Assembly: GCA_003833075.1 (NCBI GenBank)
Contig: RIAY01000004.1
Coordinates: 62,001-126,000 of the forward strand
Source: Muribaculaceae bacterium Isolate-036 (Harlan)
Lineage (GTDB): Bacteria > Bacteroidota > Bacteroidia > Bacteroidales > Muribaculaceae
Reading direction: 5' to 3'
DNA: 64,000 bases
The notes beneath the pieces are model-generated. The model made no database searches, was not told the DNA's origin, and saw only the letters and a program-made list of their open reading frames with translations. Position 1 is the first letter of the stretch, and each line of letters opens with the position of its first letter. The position numbers and the translations under genes were made by a program. Shown in pieces: positions 25,416 through 63,045 of the stretch.

Positions 25416-25904
25416 TTAAAGTAATTTCAACGCTATGGCGGCACAAGCCTCGGCATCACAAAGCGCATGATGGTGGTTTTCCATTTCATAACCACAGGCG
25501 GCTGCCGAGAGGTGGAGCTGGTGGCTGGGTATGTCAAGACAGCGGCGTGAAGCTGCAAGTGTGCAATGAAATTCGTAACCGGGATATTCCATGCCATATT
25601 CCTCAAATACAGCCTTTAAGCAGCTTTCGTCAAAAGGTCGGTTGTGGGCTACGAGAGGCAACCCTTTGATTTTATCTGCCACCTGTGCCCATACTTCAGG
25701 GAATGTCGGTTGCCCGTCGGTGTCACGACGGGTTATGCCGTGAACTTTAGTTGTCCAATATGTATAGTAGATGGGGGCAGGCTGAATAAGACTGTAAAAT
25801 TTGTCAACAATCTCACCGCCACGGACAATCACAATGCCGACGCTGCATACGCTGGAACGTCTGCCATTGGCTGTCTCAAAATCTATTGCTACAAAATCCT
25901 GCAT
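25416..25904 (-). CDS. DEDDh 3'-5' exonuclease (DnaQ-like)
   Basis: Stand-alone exonuclease domain of 162 residues. The four acidic ligands and the active His are in place: D8 and E10 (IDFE), D92 (HNRPFDESC), H145 and D150 (H-x4-D). No polymerase or RNase T-specific extras. It begins 2 bases after the WYL regulator stop, so the two are co-transcribed. The setting among RNA ligases suggests RNA end trimming, but a DNA substrate is equally possible from sequence. Confidence 0.9.
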   Translation of the reverse strand: MQDFVAIDFETANGRRSSVCSVGIVIVRGGEIVDKFYSLIQPAPIYYTYWTTKVHGITRRDTDGQPTFPEVWAQVADKIKGLPLVAHNRPFDESCLKAVFEEYGMEYPGYEFHCTLAASRRCLDIPSHQLHLSAAACGYEMENHHHALCDAEACAAIALKLL

Positions 25905-25906
25905 CT

Positions 25907-26809
25907 TCAGTCGTTCTTATAAAGTTCATACATATCCGAAATCCAGCCTTTCATCTCTTTGCGGAGTGATGCCGGACTGATCACTTCCATCATCGAACCG
26001 ACATGGAGCAACTTCATTATGAAATCGTAGGTCGGCGAGAGATACAATTCAAAATCGGCATATTCACCGTAATCCTCAATAAGTCGCTGACTATGATGAA
26101 GAGGGAGTGATTTCAGGTAATGTTTATGGTCTTCGTTGGCTCGGATCACTATTCTCTCAGGCTTGACATCGTATCCGATAACCACACCGAATTTAGTCGC
26201 GAAATACTCTGTAGCATCAAAATCTTTCGGCAACTTGAACAGGGTGTCTGTCGGTTCTACGCTCTCCAGACGGTCAAGACCGTAAATTTTTATCTCATCG
26301 CGGTTGTTGCGGCCAAGCACGTACCAGCGGTTATCAAACAGTTTCACACAATACGGTTCAATGGGGAAACTGTAACCATGCTCCTTCTTGAACGGGCGGT
26401 ATGCAATATTCACTACCCGGTTCTCCTTCATCGCATCCAGGATGGTGGTCAGATGATGACGCCCTGACGGAATTTCATCAATCAATATACGACCTTTCAA
26501 TGAGAGGTTTTCGCCGATTATATTGCCGATGGCAAATGAGTCGAGCATCCACTTTTTGAGCTTGTCCTCGTCAATATCCTCGGGATTGGAGATATAGTAA
26601 AGATAACCGCCGACTTTCTGGCAGTCAATCATGATTCCGAACTGCTCGTAGATCGCGTCACGCCAGCGGTTGAATGTGGCACGGTGAAGTTCGCGTCCGT
26701 CACTGAAATCTTTGTTGCGTGACCAGCGGTCGGAAAGATCCTTGTGTGAAATCTTCCCGGCACGGCGGATTGTGTCAATCAGCCAAGTGTATTTTTGCAG
26801 TTGGTTCAT
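25907..26809 (-). CDS. WYL-domain transcriptional regulator
   Basis: Regulator of 300 residues with an N-terminal helix-turn-helix-like part (LIDTIRRAGKISHKDLSDRW, residues about 9-28) and a central WYL domain (YRPFKKEHGYSFPIEPY followed by DNRWYVLGRN). WYL domains sense ligands, often nucleic acids or nucleotides, and control stress and phage-response genes. Start taken at 26809 (MNQLQKYTW) because the -7 box lies at 26831-26838, upstream of it. It sits 160 bp after rtcB on the same strand and is the only transcription factor in the island, so it is the best candidate for the shared rtcB operators (inference). Confidence 0.9.
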   Translation of the reverse strand: MNQLQKYTWLIDTIRRAGKISHKDLSDRWSRNKDFSDGRELHRATFNRWRDAIYEQFGIMIDCQKVGGYLYYISNPEDIDEDKLKKWMLDSFAIGNIIGENLSLKGRILIDEIPSGRHHLTTILDAMKENRVVNIAYRPFKKEHGYSFPIEPYCVKLFDNRWYVLGRNNRDEIKIYGLDRLESVEPTDTLFKLPKDFDATEYFATKFGVVIGYDVKPERIVIRANEDHKHYLKSLPLHHSQRLIEDYGEYADFELYLSPTYDFIMKLLHVGSMMEVISPASLRKEMKGWISDMYELYKND

Positions 26810-26830
26810 ATCTGTTTGAGTTTTGTACCG

Positions 26831-26838
26831 CAAAGATA
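26831..26838 (-). promoter_or_regulatory. -7 box of the WYL regulator promoter
   Basis: TATCTTTG on the - strand, 21 bp before ATG 26809. Instead of a TTTG -33 box, the upstream bases (26848-26862) are a TGC-rich imperfect repeat that only loosely resembles the rtcB operators. Confidence 0.55.
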
Positions 26839-26969: not shown

Positions 26970-28307
26970 TCATTTTGACGCCTTGAAATTAAAGATCGGA
27001 CGGATGATAGTGTCGATGTTGACTGTTTCGCCGATGTTGGCAATGATTTCCTCTGCCGGTTTATAGACCATCGGCGACTCGTCGCGGGTAAAGTCGTTGA
27101 CCGACTCCGAATAGATACCCTTCATGGATGCCTTGAAGTCTTCCAGCGTGATTTTATCGTATGCCTGAGTGCGGCTCAAAACACGTCCTGCACCATGAGG
27201 AGCCGACCGGTTCCAGTCAGGATTACCCTTGCCGGTACAAAGCAGCGACCCGTCGCGCATATTAAGAGGAATGATGCATCGTTCCCCTTCTGCGGCTGAG
27301 ATGGCGCCTTTGCGGATGATGTTCTCATCGCTGATGTAATTGTGTACAGATTCAAATTCCTCCTTTACCTCCACGCCGGGGAAGAACCGCATGAGCAAGA
27401 GCGATATGAGTTTGCGGTTAAGAACTGCCCATCGCTGGCAGAGACGCATATCGTGGAGATAGCGCTCGCGCCCTTCGCCCTCGACATAGCAAAGAGCGGC
27501 TGGAAGATTCGGTTCTGCTTCTTGGTGCTCCTTACGCATCTTCTTAATCACGCCCTGCAACTCCGACCGACGACCTGCCGCCTTGTATTCCTCTATGGTG
27601 CGTTTGATTGTGTCTTCAAATTCGTCGGCTCCGTCGGTAAGGTGCTTTACTGCCTTTTCCTGATAGATGTCGGCTACCTGCTTGCCGAGGTTTCGAGAAC
27701 CTGTATGTATCACAAGGTAAACATTGCCCTCATCGTCCTTGTCGAGCTCGATGAAATGGTTGCCGCCGCCGAGCGAGCCGATAGCCTTGTTGATGCGCCC
27801 CGAGTCTTTAATCTCTCGGTAGCAGTAAAGTCCGGTCACGAGTTGCTTTGCCTCCCGATAGATATCCATCTCCTCACCTACAAGAGGCTTGAAACCGAAA
27901 CGGTCTTCTCGCACGATCATACCCGAAGGTACATTGCCACGAATATGTTCATGGAATGCGTGAAAGTCTATATCAGAGAGTTTGCCGAGATTGAGAATAC
28001 GCATACCGCAGCCTATGTCAACGCCCACTATATTGGGAATTACCTTGTCACCAAGGTCTCCTGTGAATCCGATGACACACCCGGCACCGGCGTGTACGTC
28101 TGGCATGATGCGTATCTTCTTGTCAGAAAATACGTCAATCGAAAGCAGTTCCTTGATCTGTTCCAAGGCGGTCTCCTCGATGTTGTCCGTAAATATCTTT
28201 ACGTCATGTCCTTCTATTGCGATTGGTATTGATGGCTTTGCCACTGCGCACAGGCTTTCAGCCGACATGCGCTTCAATCCCACTCGCGAATCTTCAATTG
28301 TATTCAT
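26970..28307 (-). CDS. rtcB: RNA-splicing ligase RtcB, first copy
   Basis: GTP- and Mn-dependent RNA ligase of 445 residues that joins 2',3'-cyclic phosphate or 3'-phosphate ends to 5'-OH ends. Metal ligands D70, H72 and C77 (MPDVHAGAGC), H184 in GGGNHF, H201 in HTGSRN and H322 in HNY are present, and H371 in SAPHGAGR is the guanylylated His. All are intact. A 13-residue N-terminal extension precedes the point (MSAES) where many RtcB proteins begin. The promoter carries paired TGCGCA boxes shared with the second rtcB. The window encodes no archease or RtcA. Confidence 0.95.
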   Translation of the reverse strand: MNTIEDSRVGLKRMSAESLCAVAKPSIPIAIEGHDVKIFTDNIEETALEQIKELLSIDVFSDKKIRIMPDVHAGAGCVIGFTGDLGDKVIPNIVGVDIGCGMRILNLGKLSDIDFHAFHEHIRGNVPSGMIVREDRFGFKPLVGEEMDIYREAKQLVTGLYCYREIKDSGRINKAIGSLGGGNHFIELDKDDEGNVYLVIHTGSRNLGKQVADIYQEKAVKHLTDGADEFEDTIKRTIEEYKAAGRRSELQGVIKKMRKEHQEAEPNLPAALCYVEGEGRERYLHDMRLCQRWAVLNRKLISLLLMRFFPGVEVKEEFESVHNYISDENIIRKGAISAAEGERCIIPLNMRDGSLLCTGKGNPDWNRSAPHGAGRVLSRTQAYDKITLEDFKASMKGIYSESVNDFTRDESPMVYKPAEEIIANIGETVNIDTIIRPIFNFKASK

Positions 28308-28547: not shown

Positions 28548-28555
28548 TAACTTTG
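28548..28555 (+). promoter_or_regulatory. -7 box before the FtsZ-like gene
   Basis: TAACTTTG, 26 bp before ATG 28582. No TTTG -33 box and no TGCGCA pair here, so this unit may be controlled differently from the two rtcB genes. Confidence 0.5.
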
Positions 28556-28581: not shown

Positions 28582-29103
28582 ATGAGTAAGACAATGATAC
28601 TTGCAATCGGCGGCGCCGGTTGCAATATGGCAGAAACTATAATGTACGTTGCAAATGCGCATTGGGTCAAGGAGGCTGCATATCTTTTTGCAGATTCCGA
28701 TATGGAACGCCTTTCAAAACTGCGCAAAAAAGGATTTGAAACGTTGAGCCTTCAATGTGAGTCCGACTTATTCCCGACAGAGAAACTTAGAGGAGTAGAA
28801 AAGCTTTACATCCTTGCCGGTCTCGGAGGTATGACAGGCGGCAAATTCGCAGAGATTGCAGCAAAGTCTGCAAAATCAGATGGTGTTGGCAATGTTGCGT
28901 TAATCGTAACTCTGCCATTCGTTTTCGAGGGCTCAGGTAAATCGGCAAAGGCAACTGAGGCACTTAAATCTCTTTCGGATTTACCTGTCAAGGTTCTCAA
29001 TAACGAGGAACTTACAGAACGTTATCCGGATATTAACTTCATAAACGCCTTTGAATACTCCGATAAGGAAGCACTCAGCGCAATCGAATCAGGACTTCTT
29101 TAA
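28582..29103 (+). CDS. Small FtsZ/tubulin-like protein, GTPase half only
   Basis: Protein of 173 residues that lines up by eye with the N-terminal half of FtsZ. ILAIGGAGCNMAE (6-18) matches the FtsZ start IGVGGGGGNAV; YLFADSDMERLSK (34-46) matches FFAVNTDAQALRK; AGLGGMTGG (79-87) replaces the tubulin signature GGGTGTG; LPFVFEG (111-117) matches KPFNFEG; and an Asp at 161 stands where FtsZ binds guanine. It ends inside helix H7, so the T7 catalytic loop and whole C-terminal domain are missing. It might bind GTP but could not be activated as FtsZ is by its neighbour in a filament. Its stop overlaps the next start (TAATG). I know of no named family; the fold call is inference. Confidence 0.7.
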   Translation: MSKTMILAIGGAGCNMAETIMYVANAHWVKEAAYLFADSDMERLSKLRKKGFETLSLQCESDLFPTEKLRGVEKLYILAGLGGMTGGKFAEIAAKSAKSDGVGNVALIVTLPFVFEGSGKSAKATEALKSLSDLPVKVLNNEELTERYPDINFINAFEYSDKEALSAIESGLL

Positions 29104-29705
29104 TGAAAATACTACATCTTTCCGACACTCACAACTGCCACCACCGGCTCCGGGATTTGCCTGATGCCGATGTGGTGGTACATTCAGGAGACTTCTGCAT
29201 GGTAGGGACCGAACAGGAAGCCATGGATTTCCTCAACTGGTTTTGTGACTTGCCATACAAACACAAAATCTTTATATGTGGCAACCATGATGATTGCCTC
29301 TATGATGCCAACATTGACGGACTACCTGACAACGTACATCAACTCTCCAACTCGGGAATTGAAATTGATGGTGTCAAGTTTTATGGTGTTCCGATGTTTC
29401 TGGAAGATTGTATAACCGAGCGTCAGAGTCGCAACTATGCTAAAATCCCCGGTGATACTGACGTTTTGATTACTCATTCACCGGCATACGGCATACTTGA
29501 TTATGACGACGGCATCAACTACGGATCAGAAGAGATACTCAAGAAGTTATCCGACCTTCACCTCAAAGCACATCTATTCGGTCATCTCCACGCCCGACAC
29601 GGAATCTTAGAACAAAACGGCATCACATTCTCCAATGGTGCAATTATGAACGCTGATTACACTGTTCCCAACACTCCAAATCTAATAACCCTCGACAATG
29701 CCTAA
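29103..29705 (+). CDS. Calcineurin-like metallophosphoesterase
   Basis: Phosphoesterase of 200 residues with all family motifs: D8 and H10 (SDTH), D30 (SGDF), N61-H62 (GNHDD), H125 (THSP), and GHLHA with H161 and H163. It uses two metal ions. The short size and GHLH ending recall the MPPED group, some of whose members cut 2',3'-cyclic nucleotides. Cyclic phosphate ends are also what RtcB acts on, so RNA end processing is a reasonable guess. It overlaps the FtsZ-like gene by 1 base and the WG gene by 8. Confidence 0.92.
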   Translation: MKILHLSDTHNCHHRLRDLPDADVVVHSGDFCMVGTEQEAMDFLNWFCDLPYKHKIFICGNHDDCLYDANIDGLPDNVHQLSNSGIEIDGVKFYGVPMFLEDCITERQSRNYAKIPGDTDVLITHSPAYGILDYDDGINYGSEEILKKLSDLHLKAHLFGHLHARHGILEQNGITFSNGAIMNADYTVPNTPNLITLDNA

Positions 29706-29997
29706 AAGAAGAAGACGCCAGCCCGGAAAATACAAGCCGAAAGAACCCTTGAAGCCGAATTTCACCGGAACCAAACCGCTAACTCTCTTTCAAGCGGAAA
29801 ATGGTCTGTGGGGAGCAAAGGACGGAGACGGCAACATTGAAATCGAACCTGTCTATCGGAGAGTTGAGCAGACTCAAGAACAAAAGTCGTGTCATGAGGT
29901 ACATCTCGCTTCTAAAGATACCGTCTTGTCTGTCACGCCTGATGATTGGGATATTGTTGTGTGGCTTTCGTCAGAATTCTTTGAAAAGGATGACTAA
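29698..29997 (+). CDS. Small basic protein with one WG repeat
   Basis: Protein of 99 residues. The first 20 are very basic (MPKRRRRQPGKYKPKEP), fitting nucleic-acid binding. Residues about 30-55 form a single WG-type repeat (NGLWGAKDGDGNIEIEPVYR); WG repeats usually come in long tandem sets. The C-terminal third is acidic (SSEFFEKDD). It overlaps the phosphoesterase by 8 bases, so it belongs to the same unit. Function unknown. Confidence 0.7.
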   Translation: MPKRRRRQPGKYKPKEPLKPNFTGTKPLTLFQAENGLWGAKDGDGNIEIEPVYRRVEQTQEQKSCHEVHLASKDTVLSVTPDDWDIVVWLSSEFFEKDD

Positions 29998-30263: not shown

Positions 30264-30299
30264 TGCGCAAATCAGTTGCGCATTCGTGTCTCAACTTTG
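30264..30299 (+). promoter_or_regulatory. Second rtcB promoter with paired TGCGCA operator
   Basis: TGCGCA at 30264-30269 and 30277-30282, 7 bp apart; the second ends 9 bp before CAACTTTG (30292-30299), one base off TAnnTTTG. Spacing is identical to the first rtcB promoter. ATG 30304 follows after 4 bases, so the transcript is probably leaderless. Confidence 0.75.
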
Positions 30300-30303
30300 C
30301 GGC

Positions 30304-31503
30304 ATGATTATAAATGGAAAAGCAACATCGGTTGAGATATTCACCGATAACATAGAGCAGTCGGCTCTCGACTGGATAACCGAACTATGCGACCATCCGG
30401 CAATGGAGGGTGTGCCTATCGTGCAAATGCCCGATGTCCACGCCGGGAACTCATGTAATGTCGGCACCGCCTATCCGATAGGAATCTATGTGAATCCTGA
30501 CCATGTCGGGGTTGACATAGGTTGCACAATTTCGATGCACCGCCTTTCTTGTGGAGTCAATCCTGACGACTTTCCGCTGCTCGATCACCGCATCCGCGAG
30601 ACTATCCCAACGGGTAAGGAGATTTGCCCGAAGAACTCACTCAATGAAAAAGAATTGTTTCGTTTTCTGAACTCGCAATATCAGAAAGCCCGCTCGGTTG
30701 CTCCATACCTTATCAACGAAGCTCCTCGCATAGATGCACGTTTCATCACAGACTTCTGCCACCGCATCAAACTTCAGGAAGGGATGTTCTACAAAAGCAT
30801 CGGCACACTCGGTGGCGGAAATCACTTTATCGAGTATGGCGAAGACATCGAGTCGGGCGACGGATGGCTGACAATACACTGTGGGTCTCGAAATCTTGGA
30901 GTCAAAGTAGCCAATCACTGGCGTAATATTGCGCAGAATCCTAAACGTGCCAAATACATCGGTTATCTTTGGGGCGATGCTTTGCGGGGTTATCTCTCGG
31001 ATATGATAATCGCTCAGACTTACGCACTCTATAATCATCAGATAATCCGTGACCGCATATTCGTTATTCTCAAAAAGCTGTGTAAGGCTAAATGTCTCGA
31101 ATCCATCTTCACTACCCATAATTATATATCCGTAACAGATGAGGTGCCAATGTTAAGAAAGGGCGCAATCGACGCCTCTGAGGGGCGTAAAGTGGCAATT
31201 CCGTTCAATATGCGCGACGGTATCGCCATCTGTATAGGAAATGGAAATGAGCAGTGGCTCAACACTGCGCCGCATGGAGCCGGACGCATCATGAGCCGTG
31301 CCCAAGCCAAGAAACAAATATCACTGAGCGAATTTCAGACTTCAATGACCGGCATCTACTCATCATCTGTCTGCACCGCAACACTTGATGAATCTCCGAT
31401 GGCATACAAACCAACTGGCGAGATACTCGAACTTATCCGTCCGACAGTCGAGGTCGTGGCAATGATAAAACCAAAACTCAACATTAAAGACAACGGAGAA
31501 TGA
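30304..31503 (+). CDS. RtcB-family RNA ligase, PrfH-linked copy (RtcB2)
   Basis: RtcB-type ligase of 399 residues, shorter than the first copy. D44, H46 and C51 (PDVHAGNSC), H174 in GGGNHF, H192 in HCGSRN, H272 in HNY and the guanylylated H324 (APHGAGR) are all present. Start taken at ATG 30304, which aligns with the family start (MIINGKATSVEIFTDN); a GTG at 30286 would lie in the promoter. Its stop overlaps prfH by 4 bases. In E. coli this pairing repairs 16S rRNA cut in the decoding centre after PrfH frees the stalled ribosome. The two RtcB proteins here differ clearly, so this is not a recent duplication. Confidence 0.93.
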   Translation: MIINGKATSVEIFTDNIEQSALDWITELCDHPAMEGVPIVQMPDVHAGNSCNVGTAYPIGIYVNPDHVGVDIGCTISMHRLSCGVNPDDFPLLDHRIRETIPTGKEICPKNSLNEKELFRFLNSQYQKARSVAPYLINEAPRIDARFITDFCHRIKLQEGMFYKSIGTLGGGNHFIEYGEDIESGDGWLTIHCGSRNLGVKVANHWRNIAQNPKRAKYIGYLWGDALRGYLSDMIIAQTYALYNHQIIRDRIFVILKKLCKAKCLESIFTTHNYISVTDEVPMLRKGAIDASEGRKVAIPFNMRDGIAICIGNGNEQWLNTAPHGAGRIMSRAQAKKQISLSEFQTSMTGIYSSSVCTATLDESPMAYKPTGEILELIRPTVEVVAMIKPKLNIKDNGE

Positions 31504-32105
31504 AACACTATATACAAATCACTGCCGGTCGAGGTCCGGTTGAATGTGCAAGAGCTGTCACACTCGTTGCCCGCGAACTGCTAAAGGCAATCCCCAATCT
31601 GGAACTTACAGATAGCGAACCTCACAATCAGGTGGACGGCTGCTTCATGTCAATGACATTCACTACGGCGGAACCAATACCTCTGTCGATTGTAAATGAC
31701 TGGCAAGGCACGATACTTTGGCGGTCAACAAAGAATCCATATCGTCCCGGGCACAAACGCAGCAACTGGTTTGTCGGCATCAACTTCTTTGATGAAGTGG
31801 AACTGCCGCATATTGATGAGTCGGAAATCACTTATGAAACCTGTCGGTCAGGTGGAAAAGGTGGTCAGAATGTCAACAAGGTCGAAACCGCAGTGCGAGC
31901 AACTCATACCCCAACCGGACTATCAGTAAAATGCTCTGATGAACGTTCCCAATCGCAGAACAAGACTCTTGCAAGAGAACGGCTCCTGTTGAAGTTCCAT
32001 AAGCAAAACGACAAAGCCGTAGCCGATTCGCAAACGCGTCAATGGAGCAATCACGACAGTCTTGAACGTGGCAATCCCGTCAAAAAGTTTTCAGGACCAT
32101 TATAA
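31500..32105 (+). CDS. prfH: Peptide chain release factor H
   Basis: Release-factor homologue of 201 residues that keeps the peptidyl-hydrolase domain (SGGKGGQNVNKVE, GGQ at 121-123) but has a reduced N-terminal part and no stop-codon reading domain of RF1/RF2 type. PrfH recognises ribosomes with a cleaved decoding centre and releases the peptide so that RtcB2 can religate the rRNA. The start overlaps rtcB2 (ATGA). A bidirectional terminator follows at 32184. Confidence 0.95.
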   Translation: MKHYIQITAGRGPVECARAVTLVARELLKAIPNLELTDSEPHNQVDGCFMSMTFTTAEPIPLSIVNDWQGTILWRSTKNPYRPGHKRSNWFVGINFFDEVELPHIDESEITYETCRSGGKGGQNVNKVETAVRATHTPTGLSVKCSDERSQSQNKTLARERLLLKFHKQNDKAVADSQTRQWSNHDSLERGNPVKKFSGPL

Positions 32106-32223: not shown

Positions 32224-32224
32224 G

Positions 32225-32307
32225 TGGGCGAAGATGGATTCGAACCACCGAAGGTATAAACCAGCAGATTTACAGTCTGCCCCATTTGGCCACTCTGGTA
32301 TTCGCCC
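32225..32307 (-). tRNA. tRNA-Tyr (anticodon GTA)
   Basis: 83-base gene on the - strand. Acceptor stem GGGCGAA pairs with TTCGCCC; anticodon stem-loop CAGACTGTAAATCTG carries GTA; a long variable arm marks a class II tRNA; T-loop GGTTCGAATCC. The CCA end is not encoded. Confidence 0.95.
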
Positions 32308-60420: not shown

Positions 60421-63045
60421 TTACTTGCCGTTAAGCGTACGCTCTATAGCAAGGATCTGATAGTCGTAGAAGTCACGGGTGGCAGTGTCGGCAACAGATG
60501 CACGACGTGTCTTGTAAAGATTCTGCGTCTTGCGGAGGAGAGAGGTCATCATCGGACGCAATTCCGTTGTGGGAAGCGGTGTCTGGTTGAGAAGGAGACG
60601 GAAGAAAGAGTGATCCCCGTCTTCATGCGCCTGACAAGCCGAAAATCCGCATGGAAATTCCGGAAGGGTGGAAAGAGCCATAAACTCGGCAAATTCATCC
60701 ACTACCGTCATCGAATCCTCTTCTGCAAAGGAACGGGAAGACTTAGCCACCTTAGGTTTGAGACCCGAATATGTGGTCATCACATCGATTGCAGCCTGCT
60801 GCATGTTACGTTCAGTAGCATTGAGAGCCTTGCCTTTCTTTGTTGCCTCGAAAACTCCGTCGTAAGCTTCGGCAATATATTCGGGAAGCGTATAATTCAA
60901 CTTTGGATCAAGTTCGCCACCCTCTTTTATGCGCTGCAGGTTGGTAGAGATAAACAGGCAGGCAACTACATTGCGCTGCATCTTGTCGCGGAACTGATAA
61001 GGCTCCTCGAATTTTGCAATCAGCTTGGCGGGAACCATCCAGTCACATGTGCGCGCCTGATTCAACAGCCATTTCATAGCTTCGCGTTGCTTCGCTTTCG
61101 GAATGAAATTGCGCTGAGCCCCATTATCTTTTGCACCCTGACGTATCTCCTTGAACTCAACTCCTCCTATATATGGATACACATGACCTACATGACGGAG
61201 ATATTGCGAACACATAGCCTTATATTTATCCGAAAGAAGTTCAAAATCCTCTCCAGGCTCTCCCGCCCAGTCTTCAAGATTATTCATGATTATCTTGAGA
61301 TTCGATATCGCCATGTCTCCGGCTTTGATATGGTCGTTCCCGAGATCTTCAGTCTGGTCTGTCGGGTCGACAAGCCCGAGGAACTGCTGCGCTCCGAATT
61401 CATACATGGGGTCATTGGCTTTTTCTGCTATCCAGCGGTCAAGAGTCGGTTTCTCCGCCTCCGGGGTGTCTGCGCCGGGAATAAGGCGATAGCCCCAGTT
61501 GATGGCATAGATGTCATAGACGCCTACCGGAGGGGGGGTGAGTCGAACGCCGCGCTCAAGATCTCCCGGCTGCGCAACGAAATTATTGCGGGCATAGTCC
61601 ATGATGGATGGAGTCGTGCCGTGCTTCTGTGTGAAAGCAGGGTCACGGAGATTGTCAAGAGTGAAGGAGTGCGATGCACCCATGTTGTGCATAAGTCCAA
61701 GACAGTGACCGATTTCATGCGCCGCTACATAAGTGAGCGACTCATGCATCACGTCATCGTCAAACACCGGTTTGCGCACACGAGGATCGACAGCACCTGT
61801 CTGTGTGAAACGCCAGTTGTGCACAAGGTTGAGGATATTATGATACCAAATCACGTCCGCGCCGAGAATCTCGCCCGTGCGTGGGTCGGCATAAGAGGGT
61901 CCCATGGCGTTGGCGGTAGGAGTTACACAATAGCGGATGCAGGAATAACGGATATCGTCCGGATCAAAATCCGGGTCATTCTTGGGATAGTCACGTGCCT
62001 CTATAGCATTCTTAAAACCGGCAGCCTCAAAAGCCGTGTTCCAATATTCGATACCCTCCTTCACGGCAGGACGCCATTTTTCGGGAAAAGCGGAATCCAC
62101 GTAAAATACGATCTTCTTTTTAGGCTCCACAAGCTTTCCTGCAAAATAAGCCTCGCGGTCTTCATCCTTCGGTTCCAGACGATGACGGTTTATGATCTCA
62201 TAAGTCTTGGTACCGTCAAGTTTGGAAGAATAGAGGTTCTTATATTCCGAGAAGAAACCGACACGCTTGTCATGAAAGCGGACAGGCATGGGATCATCGG
62301 GAAGCTGCACAATATTGCGCGACATTGTGACCGTATACGGATTGGCGGCAGTGGGAGTGGTATAAGCCAGACGGCTTTTTATCTCTACATTCTGAGGGAA
62401 CGATTTTGCAGAAATCACTCCTGAACCATCGGCATAATATGTGCCCTTGATGCCATCCTTACCACCGAGAAGTTTAGATAAGGGATTAGCTTCCTTAATC
62501 GGGGAAATCGATTTCTCGTTGCCCGCAAAGAAAGAGGTGACATCGACATATATTTTGCCGTTACTCTTGTGATCTATTTTGAAAGACTTGAGGATAGGCT
62601 CCGCAAAGTTAAGGTCGAAAGAGGCACGGATGGGATCATCATCCTTCACGACACTCGTAGACTGAGGAAGAGTGATGAAAAGATTGTTGTCATTGCGCGA
62701 GAAGCGTATCAACCGGGACGACACCACCTGACCGGCAACCCAGTCATTGGTCTGTGACAACGAATTGACGCGGTTCACGAGCATATAGGTCTTTCCTAAC
62801 ACAGAGTCCGGAATCTCGAAATACAGTTTCCCTTTGTTGTCAAGATAAGTATTGAACATTCCGCGTGTCACCGAGGCATCCTTAAGCTTTTTATGGAATG
62901 CCACGCTGTCTTTTGCCTCTTGCGAAAGCTCTGTCTTGGGGAGTTCCGTTTTTTTCTTCTTCTTTGCCTCTGCAGGTTGAGAGGAGCATAACGCGCCGAT
63001 TGCCAAAAAAGCGGCTATCGCATAATTCGCAGATTTAGGGTTCAT
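60421..63045 (-). CDS. Secreted zinc metalloprotease, DUF5117 family
   Basis: Protease of 874 residues. Signal peptide, Lys-rich mature N-terminus, DUF5118/DUF5117 regions to about residue 400, then the metzincin-like zinc motif HEIGHCLGLMHN at 443-454 (H443, H447, H453), and a C-terminal domain of the same family. It is the first gene of the protease-susC-susD unit, and suggests degradation of proteins before uptake by SusCD. Confidence 0.92.
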   Translation of the reverse strand: MNPKSANYAIAAFLAIGALCSSQPAEAKKKKKTELPKTELSQEAKDSVAFHKKLKDASVTRGMFNTYLDNKGKLYFEIPDSVLGKTYMLVNRVNSLSQTNDWVAGQVVSSRLIRFSRNDNNLFITLPQSTSVVKDDDPIRASFDLNFAEPILKSFKIDHKSNGKIYVDVTSFFAGNEKSISPIKEANPLSKLLGGKDGIKGTYYADGSGVISAKSFPQNVEIKSRLAYTTPTAANPYTVTMSRNIVQLPDDPMPVRFHDKRVGFFSEYKNLYSSKLDGTKTYEIINRHRLEPKDEDREAYFAGKLVEPKKKIVFYVDSAFPEKWRPAVKEGIEYWNTAFEAAGFKNAIEARDYPKNDPDFDPDDIRYSCIRYCVTPTANAMGPSYADPRTGEILGADVIWYHNILNLVHNWRFTQTGAVDPRVRKPVFDDDVMHESLTYVAAHEIGHCLGLMHNMGASHSFTLDNLRDPAFTQKHGTTPSIMDYARNNFVAQPGDLERGVRLTPPPVGVYDIYAINWGYRLIPGADTPEAEKPTLDRWIAEKANDPMYEFGAQQFLGLVDPTDQTEDLGNDHIKAGDMAISNLKIIMNNLEDWAGEPGEDFELLSDKYKAMCSQYLRHVGHVYPYIGGVEFKEIRQGAKDNGAQRNFIPKAKQREAMKWLLNQARTCDWMVPAKLIAKFEEPYQFRDKMQRNVVACLFISTNLQRIKEGGELDPKLNYTLPEYIAEAYDGVFEATKKGKALNATERNMQQAAIDVMTTYSGLKPKVAKSSRSFAEEDSMTVVDEFAEFMALSTLPEFPCGFSACQAHEDGDHSFFRLLLNQTPLPTTELRPMMTSLLRKTQNLYKTRRASVADTATRDFYDYQILAIERTLNGK

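Follow-up and report, generated by a model that had tools for sequence, protein, structure and literature searches.

A stand-alone FtsZ GTP-binding half in an RNA-repair gene island of Muribaculaceae, and its separately encoded C-terminal counterparts

The DNA considered here is a stretch of 64,000 nucleotides of Muribaculaceae bacterium Isolate-036 (Harlan) (the window; positions 62,001 to 126,000 of contig RIAY01000004.1, assembly GCA_003833075.1). Its subject is a gene at 28582..29103 of the forward strand for a 173-residue protein, the N-half, made up of the GTP-binding domain of FtsZ without the T3 loop and with its end inside helix H7. The frame is open throughout, and the complementary one is rich in stops. 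Translation places the motifs named in an earlier note on this DNA at the very residues it had given, namely the T1 loop GGAGCN (residues 10-15, 28609..28626), the T4 loop AGLGGMTGG, which resembles the tubulin signature (residues 79-87, 28816..28842), the T5 loop LPFVFEG (residues 111-117, 28912..28932) and Asp161 at the start of H7 (29050..29064), where Phe157 is also found; the last two we take to be the guanine-contact positions of FtsZ, and residues 156-170 form a helix in the predicted model. Among 12 relatives of 26-90% identity, 13 columns are invariant and 10 nearly so, chiefly in loops of the pocket that are named by alignment to FtsZ: G10, G13, N15, G82, P112, F113, F115, E116, G117 and F157 belong to the first group, G83, T85, G86 and D161 to the second. 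About 30 bases ahead of the start, at 28548-28555, TAACTTTG agrees with the Bacteroidota -7 element TAnnTTTG and may be part of a promoter.

That these motifs are not a chance assembly follows from the match to PF00091, the tubulin/FtsZ GTPase domain (expectation value (E) 1.4e-9; 38.9 bits, above the cut-off of 33), and to the ftsZ model TIGR00065 (1.4e-14). The latter match is partial (54.2 bits against a cut-off of 295.2), and with neither T7 nor a C-terminal domain in its chain the N-half is not an FtsZ proper. The solved relatives closest by sequence are FtsZ chains, the best being T. maritima FtsZ (9.5e-11), and a profile made from the 12 relatives reaches 5e-22. Structure prediction with fold search agrees with the profile searches: the predicted model has the FtsZ/tubulin N-domain fold and aligns to residues 11-197 of E. 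coli FtsZ. By alignment to FtsZ, loops T1, T2, T4, T5 and T6 and the first half of H7 are retained, and the chain stops in H7 ahead of T7, as the predicted structure also indicates. The view of the earlier note that this is the GTP-binding domain of FtsZ without the C-terminal half, ending before T7, is thus borne out by profile, fold and conservation. No PADLOC family model matched the N-half itself.

The gene is followed on the forward strand by that of a calcineurin-like metallophosphoesterase (29103..29705; PF00149, 1.1e-11; PADLOC family PDC-S10, 1.6e-74), the start of which overlaps the N-half stop (TAATG) and whose nearest solved relative is MPPED2 (2.6e-19); the term PDC does not occur in the text of a PADLOC paper. 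The same overlap is found in nine of 16 distinct N-half loci (the window, L001-L006, L071 and L073; the prefixes L, G and C denote loci, genomes and contigs of our comparison). Further along the forward strand lie a 99-residue protein with no family match (29698..29997), a 63% relative of which directly follows the phosphoesterase in L004, an RtcB RNA ligase (30286..31503; PF01139, 3.3e-56) and the peptide-release factor PrfH (31500..32105; TIGR03072, 185.5 bits, cut-off 166.65). The prfH gene overlaps the rtcB stop, so that the island, if not the N-half itself, contains the coupled pair typical of an RtcB-PrfH module; the RtcB scores 76 bits against TIGR03073, far below the cut-off of 271.8. 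On the reverse strand, and divergent from the N-half, are a second RtcB (26970..28307; PF01139, 3.4e-58), a WYL-domain regulator (25907..26833; PF13280, 1.9e-13; PF25583, 5e-7; also PADLOC WYL) and a DEDDh exonuclease-like protein (25416..25904; PADLOC PDC-S48, 1.6e-30, and DEDDh, 1.2e-25).

The right edge of the island is marked by a tRNA-Tyr gene (32224..32307, reverse strand) ahead of a gene resembling that of lysyl-tRNA synthetase (lysS); from their sequences we take the flanking genes to be pfkA-like and lysS-like. No island gene was found upstream of lysS in 10 loci of the same genus (14 other genomes gave a lysS match), a comparison in which gene order varies generally and several contigs reach no further than a few kilobases. 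No MoxR-type gene was seen in the window island. Genes for a DprA-like protein, a nuclease of PD-(D/E)XK type and a metallo-beta-lactamase-type hydrolase that carries an RNA-specificity domain are added in the islands of relatives.

The N-half is a real, actively maintained gene for a single-domain relative of FtsZ. The ratio of nonsynonymous to synonymous substitution rates (dN/dS, by the Nei-Gojobori method) lies between 0.10 and 0.15 when the window is compared with L001-L004 and between 0.15 and 0.28 in another four pairs, the pair of the window and L005 being saturated, and the phosphoesterase is as constrained (0.06-0.13 in four pairs). Length and end point of the halves are nearly constant across several genera. 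In a phylogenetic tree, which has some long branches and an unsure deeper order, canonical FtsZ is separate from a clade of nine window-type halves (support 99/97). An ordinary FtsZ is present in the same genome (G000) as a 464-codon frame on another contig.

The missing part of the molecule also occurs as genes of its own. In two N-half loci a short open reading frame was found that matches the FtsZ C-domain and not the N-domain profile, and the alignment of these two (A2; source genomes G009 and G102) was used to find further C-types. A search of G000 with Pfam FtsZ_C returned the ordinary FtsZ only; custom alignments of this kind were needed for the C-halves. The C-types are of two kinds, namely short C-halves with their start in H7 and with T7 included, and pseudo-FtsZ proteins, some 240 residues long, in which an N-domain is present without its nucleotide loops. 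A profile of nine C-types (A4) finds FtsZ in the PDB at 3.7e-14, chiefly through the C-domain. N-half and C-half jointly amount to the FtsZ core minus T3, with the split point inside H7. Of 16 C-types aligned (L090, which is truncated, L129, which is broken, and L142 being left out), 15 keep the last (second) Asp of T7, 12 its first acidic position and three the Asn. The last Asp of T7 is catalytic in FtsZ, and T3 senses the gamma-phosphate.

The genome of the window itself encodes an intact C-half of 169 residues on contig C68, with the T7 sequence NVDIID, and on contig C67 (L090:7048-9099) a truncated C-type beside a second WYL-exonuclease cassette that is 90-94% identical to that of the window. 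After the C67 cassette, open reading frames were judged by eye to be protein-kinase-like and vWA-like.

The distribution of the two parts was determined in 198 genomes of the family, 20 of which gave more than one match. The N-half occurs in 10 (G000, G002, G009, G082, G093, G098, G102, G113, G125 and G177), an N-type of 226-232 residues in six (G026, G034, G097, G140, G166 and G181) and a 728-residue fusion in one (G058); three multi-match genomes (G017, G095 and G187) carry full-length-type or broken full FtsZ paralogues alone. With A4, separate C-types were found in four of the six N-type genomes, not in the fusion genome, and in all 10 N-half genomes, a count that is partly so by construction because A4 was built from C-types of eight of those 10. 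Family genomes without any N served as controls and gave C-types in 6/39 and 9/44, that is, 15/83, weak matches down to 7.8e-5 included. Fisher tests, which ignore kinship, yield p = 4e-7 for 10/10 against 15/83 and 7e-7 for 14/17 against 15/83. Given the origin of A4, the control test was repeated with A2 (E 1e-3, its sources G009 and G102 left out), which found C-types in six of eight N-half genomes, four of six N-type genomes and 4/39 plus 5/44 (9/83) controls; the p values, with kinship and shared island membership ignored, are 1.7e-4 for the halves and 5e-6 for halves and N-types together. This control weakens the p value of the co-occurrence and leaves its direction unchanged.

C-type counts exclude frames of at least 400 codons and the 270-codon FtsZ piece of G166, with one exception, the 674-codon FtsK fusion of G093, which was counted in addition to a separate 149-codon C-half of that genome. 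A 248-codon frame in G140 (C8:13216) lies outside the counts, and G034 was removed from the A4 controls as it carries an N-type. The loci are partly redundant: L007 equals L006 over the 5952 bases of the latter, and L011 and L069 are the same contig stretch as L001. At L137 and L142 profile matches were obtained for which the caller returned no open reading frame. N-type and C-type genes are close neighbours in G034, G097, G140 and G181 (L124, L126, L127 and L129).

The islands that hold these genes are variable, and their content extends beyond RNA repair. WYL regulators are carried by C-type and N-type islands, and near the pseudo-FtsZ of G002 (L091) are a bpMoxR protein (PF20030, 9e-56), a protein with weak vWA matches and, one small open reading frame away from the pseudo-FtsZ, an FtsK/SpoIIIE ATPase (3e-39). 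A single chain of G093 (L092:5383-7398) joins two cell-division proteins, an FtsK alpha-ATPase-gamma protein and an FtsZ C-half, and in G098 (L077:1681-3093) a hexapeptide/beta-solenoid repeat protein carries an N-half at its C-terminus. At L008:2366-3421 an N-half is in frame with what by eye is a GNAT-like acetyltransferase, a separate gene further downstream in L007; the fusion looks like a deletion that removed the phosphoesterase.

Other families (L131-L136) have short N-type FtsZ frames as well, and so does one genome from another order (L138). A window-type half outside the family was seen neither among the matches listed, from 393 genomes of the order and 345 of the class, with one search run at E 1e-12, nor in the multi-match genomes inspected. 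Some further frames may be recorded here. The N-type half of the other order (L138:6236-6895) begins with a motif that by eye we take to be a twin-arginine export signal, which, if true, would put an FtsZ-like domain outside the cytoplasm. A 206-codon N-type frame with an intact T3 loop lies at the edge of a viral contig (L161:1-618). Genomes of other Bacteroidales families have a contig on which three FtsZ frames, 418-482 codons in length, lie close to one another (G227:C11, G340:C114, G434:C37 and G265:C83).

Two separately encoded FtsZ halves, together with a cluster of RNA-repair and defence-type genes, suggest an evolutionary split for a role in stress or defence, and the N-half can be regarded as part of a split FtsZ theme in conflict and RNA-repair islands of Bacteroidales. 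The explanation we favour, to which we give a probability of about 45%, is that the N-half is the part that binds the nucleotide in a split module derived from FtsZ, and that docking of this half, triggered by stress, blocks division during RNA repair. A stress sensed by the WYL regulator, such as cleaved RNA or phage attack, would be the trigger; the N-half would bind a guanine nucleotide and, when loaded, dock through an FtsZ-type longitudinal interface onto the T7-bearing surface of a C-type partner, possibly also of the resident FtsZ; and docking would block filament growth and septation while RtcB and PrfH mend the damaged RNA. This proposal builds on fold and profile, the conserved pocket, the low dN/dS, the separate clade and the presence of an ordinary FtsZ, on the complementary split in H7, the excess of C-types, the kept T7 Asp and the neighbouring N and C genes, and on the PDC-S10 overlap in nine of 16 loci and the islands with bpMoxR, FtsK and WYL. 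The earlier reading of the protein as a GTP-binding half is retained in it, and the capping of filaments or signalling by bound GTP that the earlier note suggested are possible functions; the deletion of T3, the separately encoded other half and the RtcB/PrfH/WYL island, with a metallophosphoesterase that is a defence candidate next to the N-half, were not noticed there.

Several observations weigh against the split module. The N-half lacks some 20 residues with the T3 loop, which is deleted in every aligned half that covers the region; this loss speaks against an ordinary GTPase site and makes gamma-phosphate sensing doubtful. In the genome of the window the C-types are on contigs other than that of the N-half, one of them truncated, and only three of 10 genomes (G002, G009 and G102) have an N-half and a C-type on the same contig. 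To the partial circularity of the A4 count are added the C-types without any N in the 15 control genomes, the absence of a C-type from three of 17 N-carrying genomes (G026, G166 and G058) and the failure of A2 to find one in the N-half genomes G098 and G125. Co-occurrence may merely reflect that both genes belong to the same kind of island. Finally, the halves are not one clade in the tree, as the more distant L075-L077 join the N-types of about 226 residues (95/90).

A more ambitious version, possible but distinctly tentative, is that FtsZ split in two genes forms in trans a dimer controlled by guanine nucleotide, makes no long filament and serves as a switch in WYL-linked islands for RNA repair or against phages; pieces of FtsZ and FtsK would be the missing, division-stopping effectors of Bacteroidota MoxR-vWA-type conflict systems. 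It seems rather unlikely that the N-half is simply a division inhibitor acting on the resident FtsZ alone, the C-types being unrelated companions: as a top face without a bottom it would take the T7 side of the last subunit and cap the filament. The small proteins SulA and MciZ, for example, act at interfaces of the FtsZ filament without being FtsZ homologues. A capper alone leaves unexplained the excess of C-types in N-half genomes and the neighbouring N and C genes, and T3, which is part of the top face of FtsZ, is deleted in the N-half.

Slightly less likely again is a nucleotide-sensing subunit, in which the FtsZ domain would bind GTP, GDP or an alarmone and switch the PDC-S10 enzyme, the substrate of which would be a cyclic nucleotide or, for RtcB, RNA ends. 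The start/stop overlap with the phosphoesterase gene, the equal constraint on the two proteins and the relationship to MPPED2 speak for such a pairing; on the other side, L072 and L074 have the two genes at a distance from each other, the phosphoesterase was not found in the stretches read of L008, L070, L075, L076 and L077, and at L140 a phosphoesterase and a C-half occur but no N-half. It is improbable that the N-half is a decoy of FtsZ, by which a phage inhibitor that binds it would set off the island. Phages often block host division, the neighbours WYL, PDC-S10 and PDC-S48 are of defence type, and the island is absent from the 10 same-genus lysS loci; against this, neither a trigger nor a toxic effector was identified, and the conserved positions are mostly those of the nucleotide pocket. 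That the N-half is what remains of a broken FtsZ gene, or results from an error of assembly, can be dismissed almost entirely, for although broken relatives exist (an in-frame stop in L070, the split C-type of L129 and the truncated C-type of G000:C67), the dN/dS values, the constant length and end point, the separate clade and the intact FtsZ elsewhere contradict it.

FtsZ and tubulin are two-domain proteins in which the active site forms between subunits. Should the split module exist as proposed, its two separately encoded domains would make it possible to test directly if the composite GTPase site can act as a switch in the absence of a polymer, and the finding would link RNA-repair and defence-type islands to the control of cell division.

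Among known systems, FtsZ itself (TIGR00065; PF00091 plus PF12327) shares with the N-half the N-terminal GTP-binding fold, T1, T2, T4, T5, T6 and the start of H7; T3, T7, the C-terminal domain and the tail are missing from the latter, which at 173 residues falls in a separate clade. In plants, ARC3 is another FtsZ-like domain that lacks the C-half. A split or half FtsZ was not found by title or beginning of abstract in the literature searched, outside which most subscription journals lie. The passages of Makarova and Koonin 2010 (PMC2875224) that concern FtsZl1 and FtsZl2 describe long FtsZ-like proteins with coiled-coil and helical regions or a C-terminal region of about 300 residues, in keeping with the statement of the earlier note that known FtsZ-like families are full length or longer. 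FtsZl1 is similar in having, according to the same passages, an FtsZ-like N-domain without a canonical FtsZ C-domain; here, by contrast with both proteins, the domain stands alone, with nothing beyond its 173 residues that could be a coiled coil or a helical C-terminal region, and the C-domains are separate genes. The domain-swapped T. maritima FtsZ (PDB 1w5f) has a title that suggests pairing of N- and C-domains between chains, although in a T7-mutated FtsZ from a single gene and not from two. SulA (PDB 1ofu) and MciZ (PDB 4u39) are possible functional analogues.

As in the RtcB2-PrfH systems of ribosome rescue and repair, to judge from portions of PMC9223846 and PMC1586002, the window island has an overlapping rtcB-prfH pair; a full-text literature search for RtcB, PrfH and FtsZ together gave a sole match, on diplonemid mitochondria. 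In MoxR-vWA systems the cell-division-type effectors mentioned in the relevant passages of Kaur et al. 2020 (PMC7159879) are MinD/ParA, FtsK and, rarely, FtsZ/tubulin, and the beta-propeller systems are described there as showing no conventional effector modules; the text has three occurrences of FtsZ and none of RtcB, and those passages make no mention of an FtsZ split in two genes. Relatives found here lie close to bpMoxR, to FtsK-like proteins and to a protein with a weak vWA match, and may belong to systems of this kind; the window island differs in having RtcB and PrfH and no MoxR. Such relatives may be candidate effectors for the beta-propeller systems.
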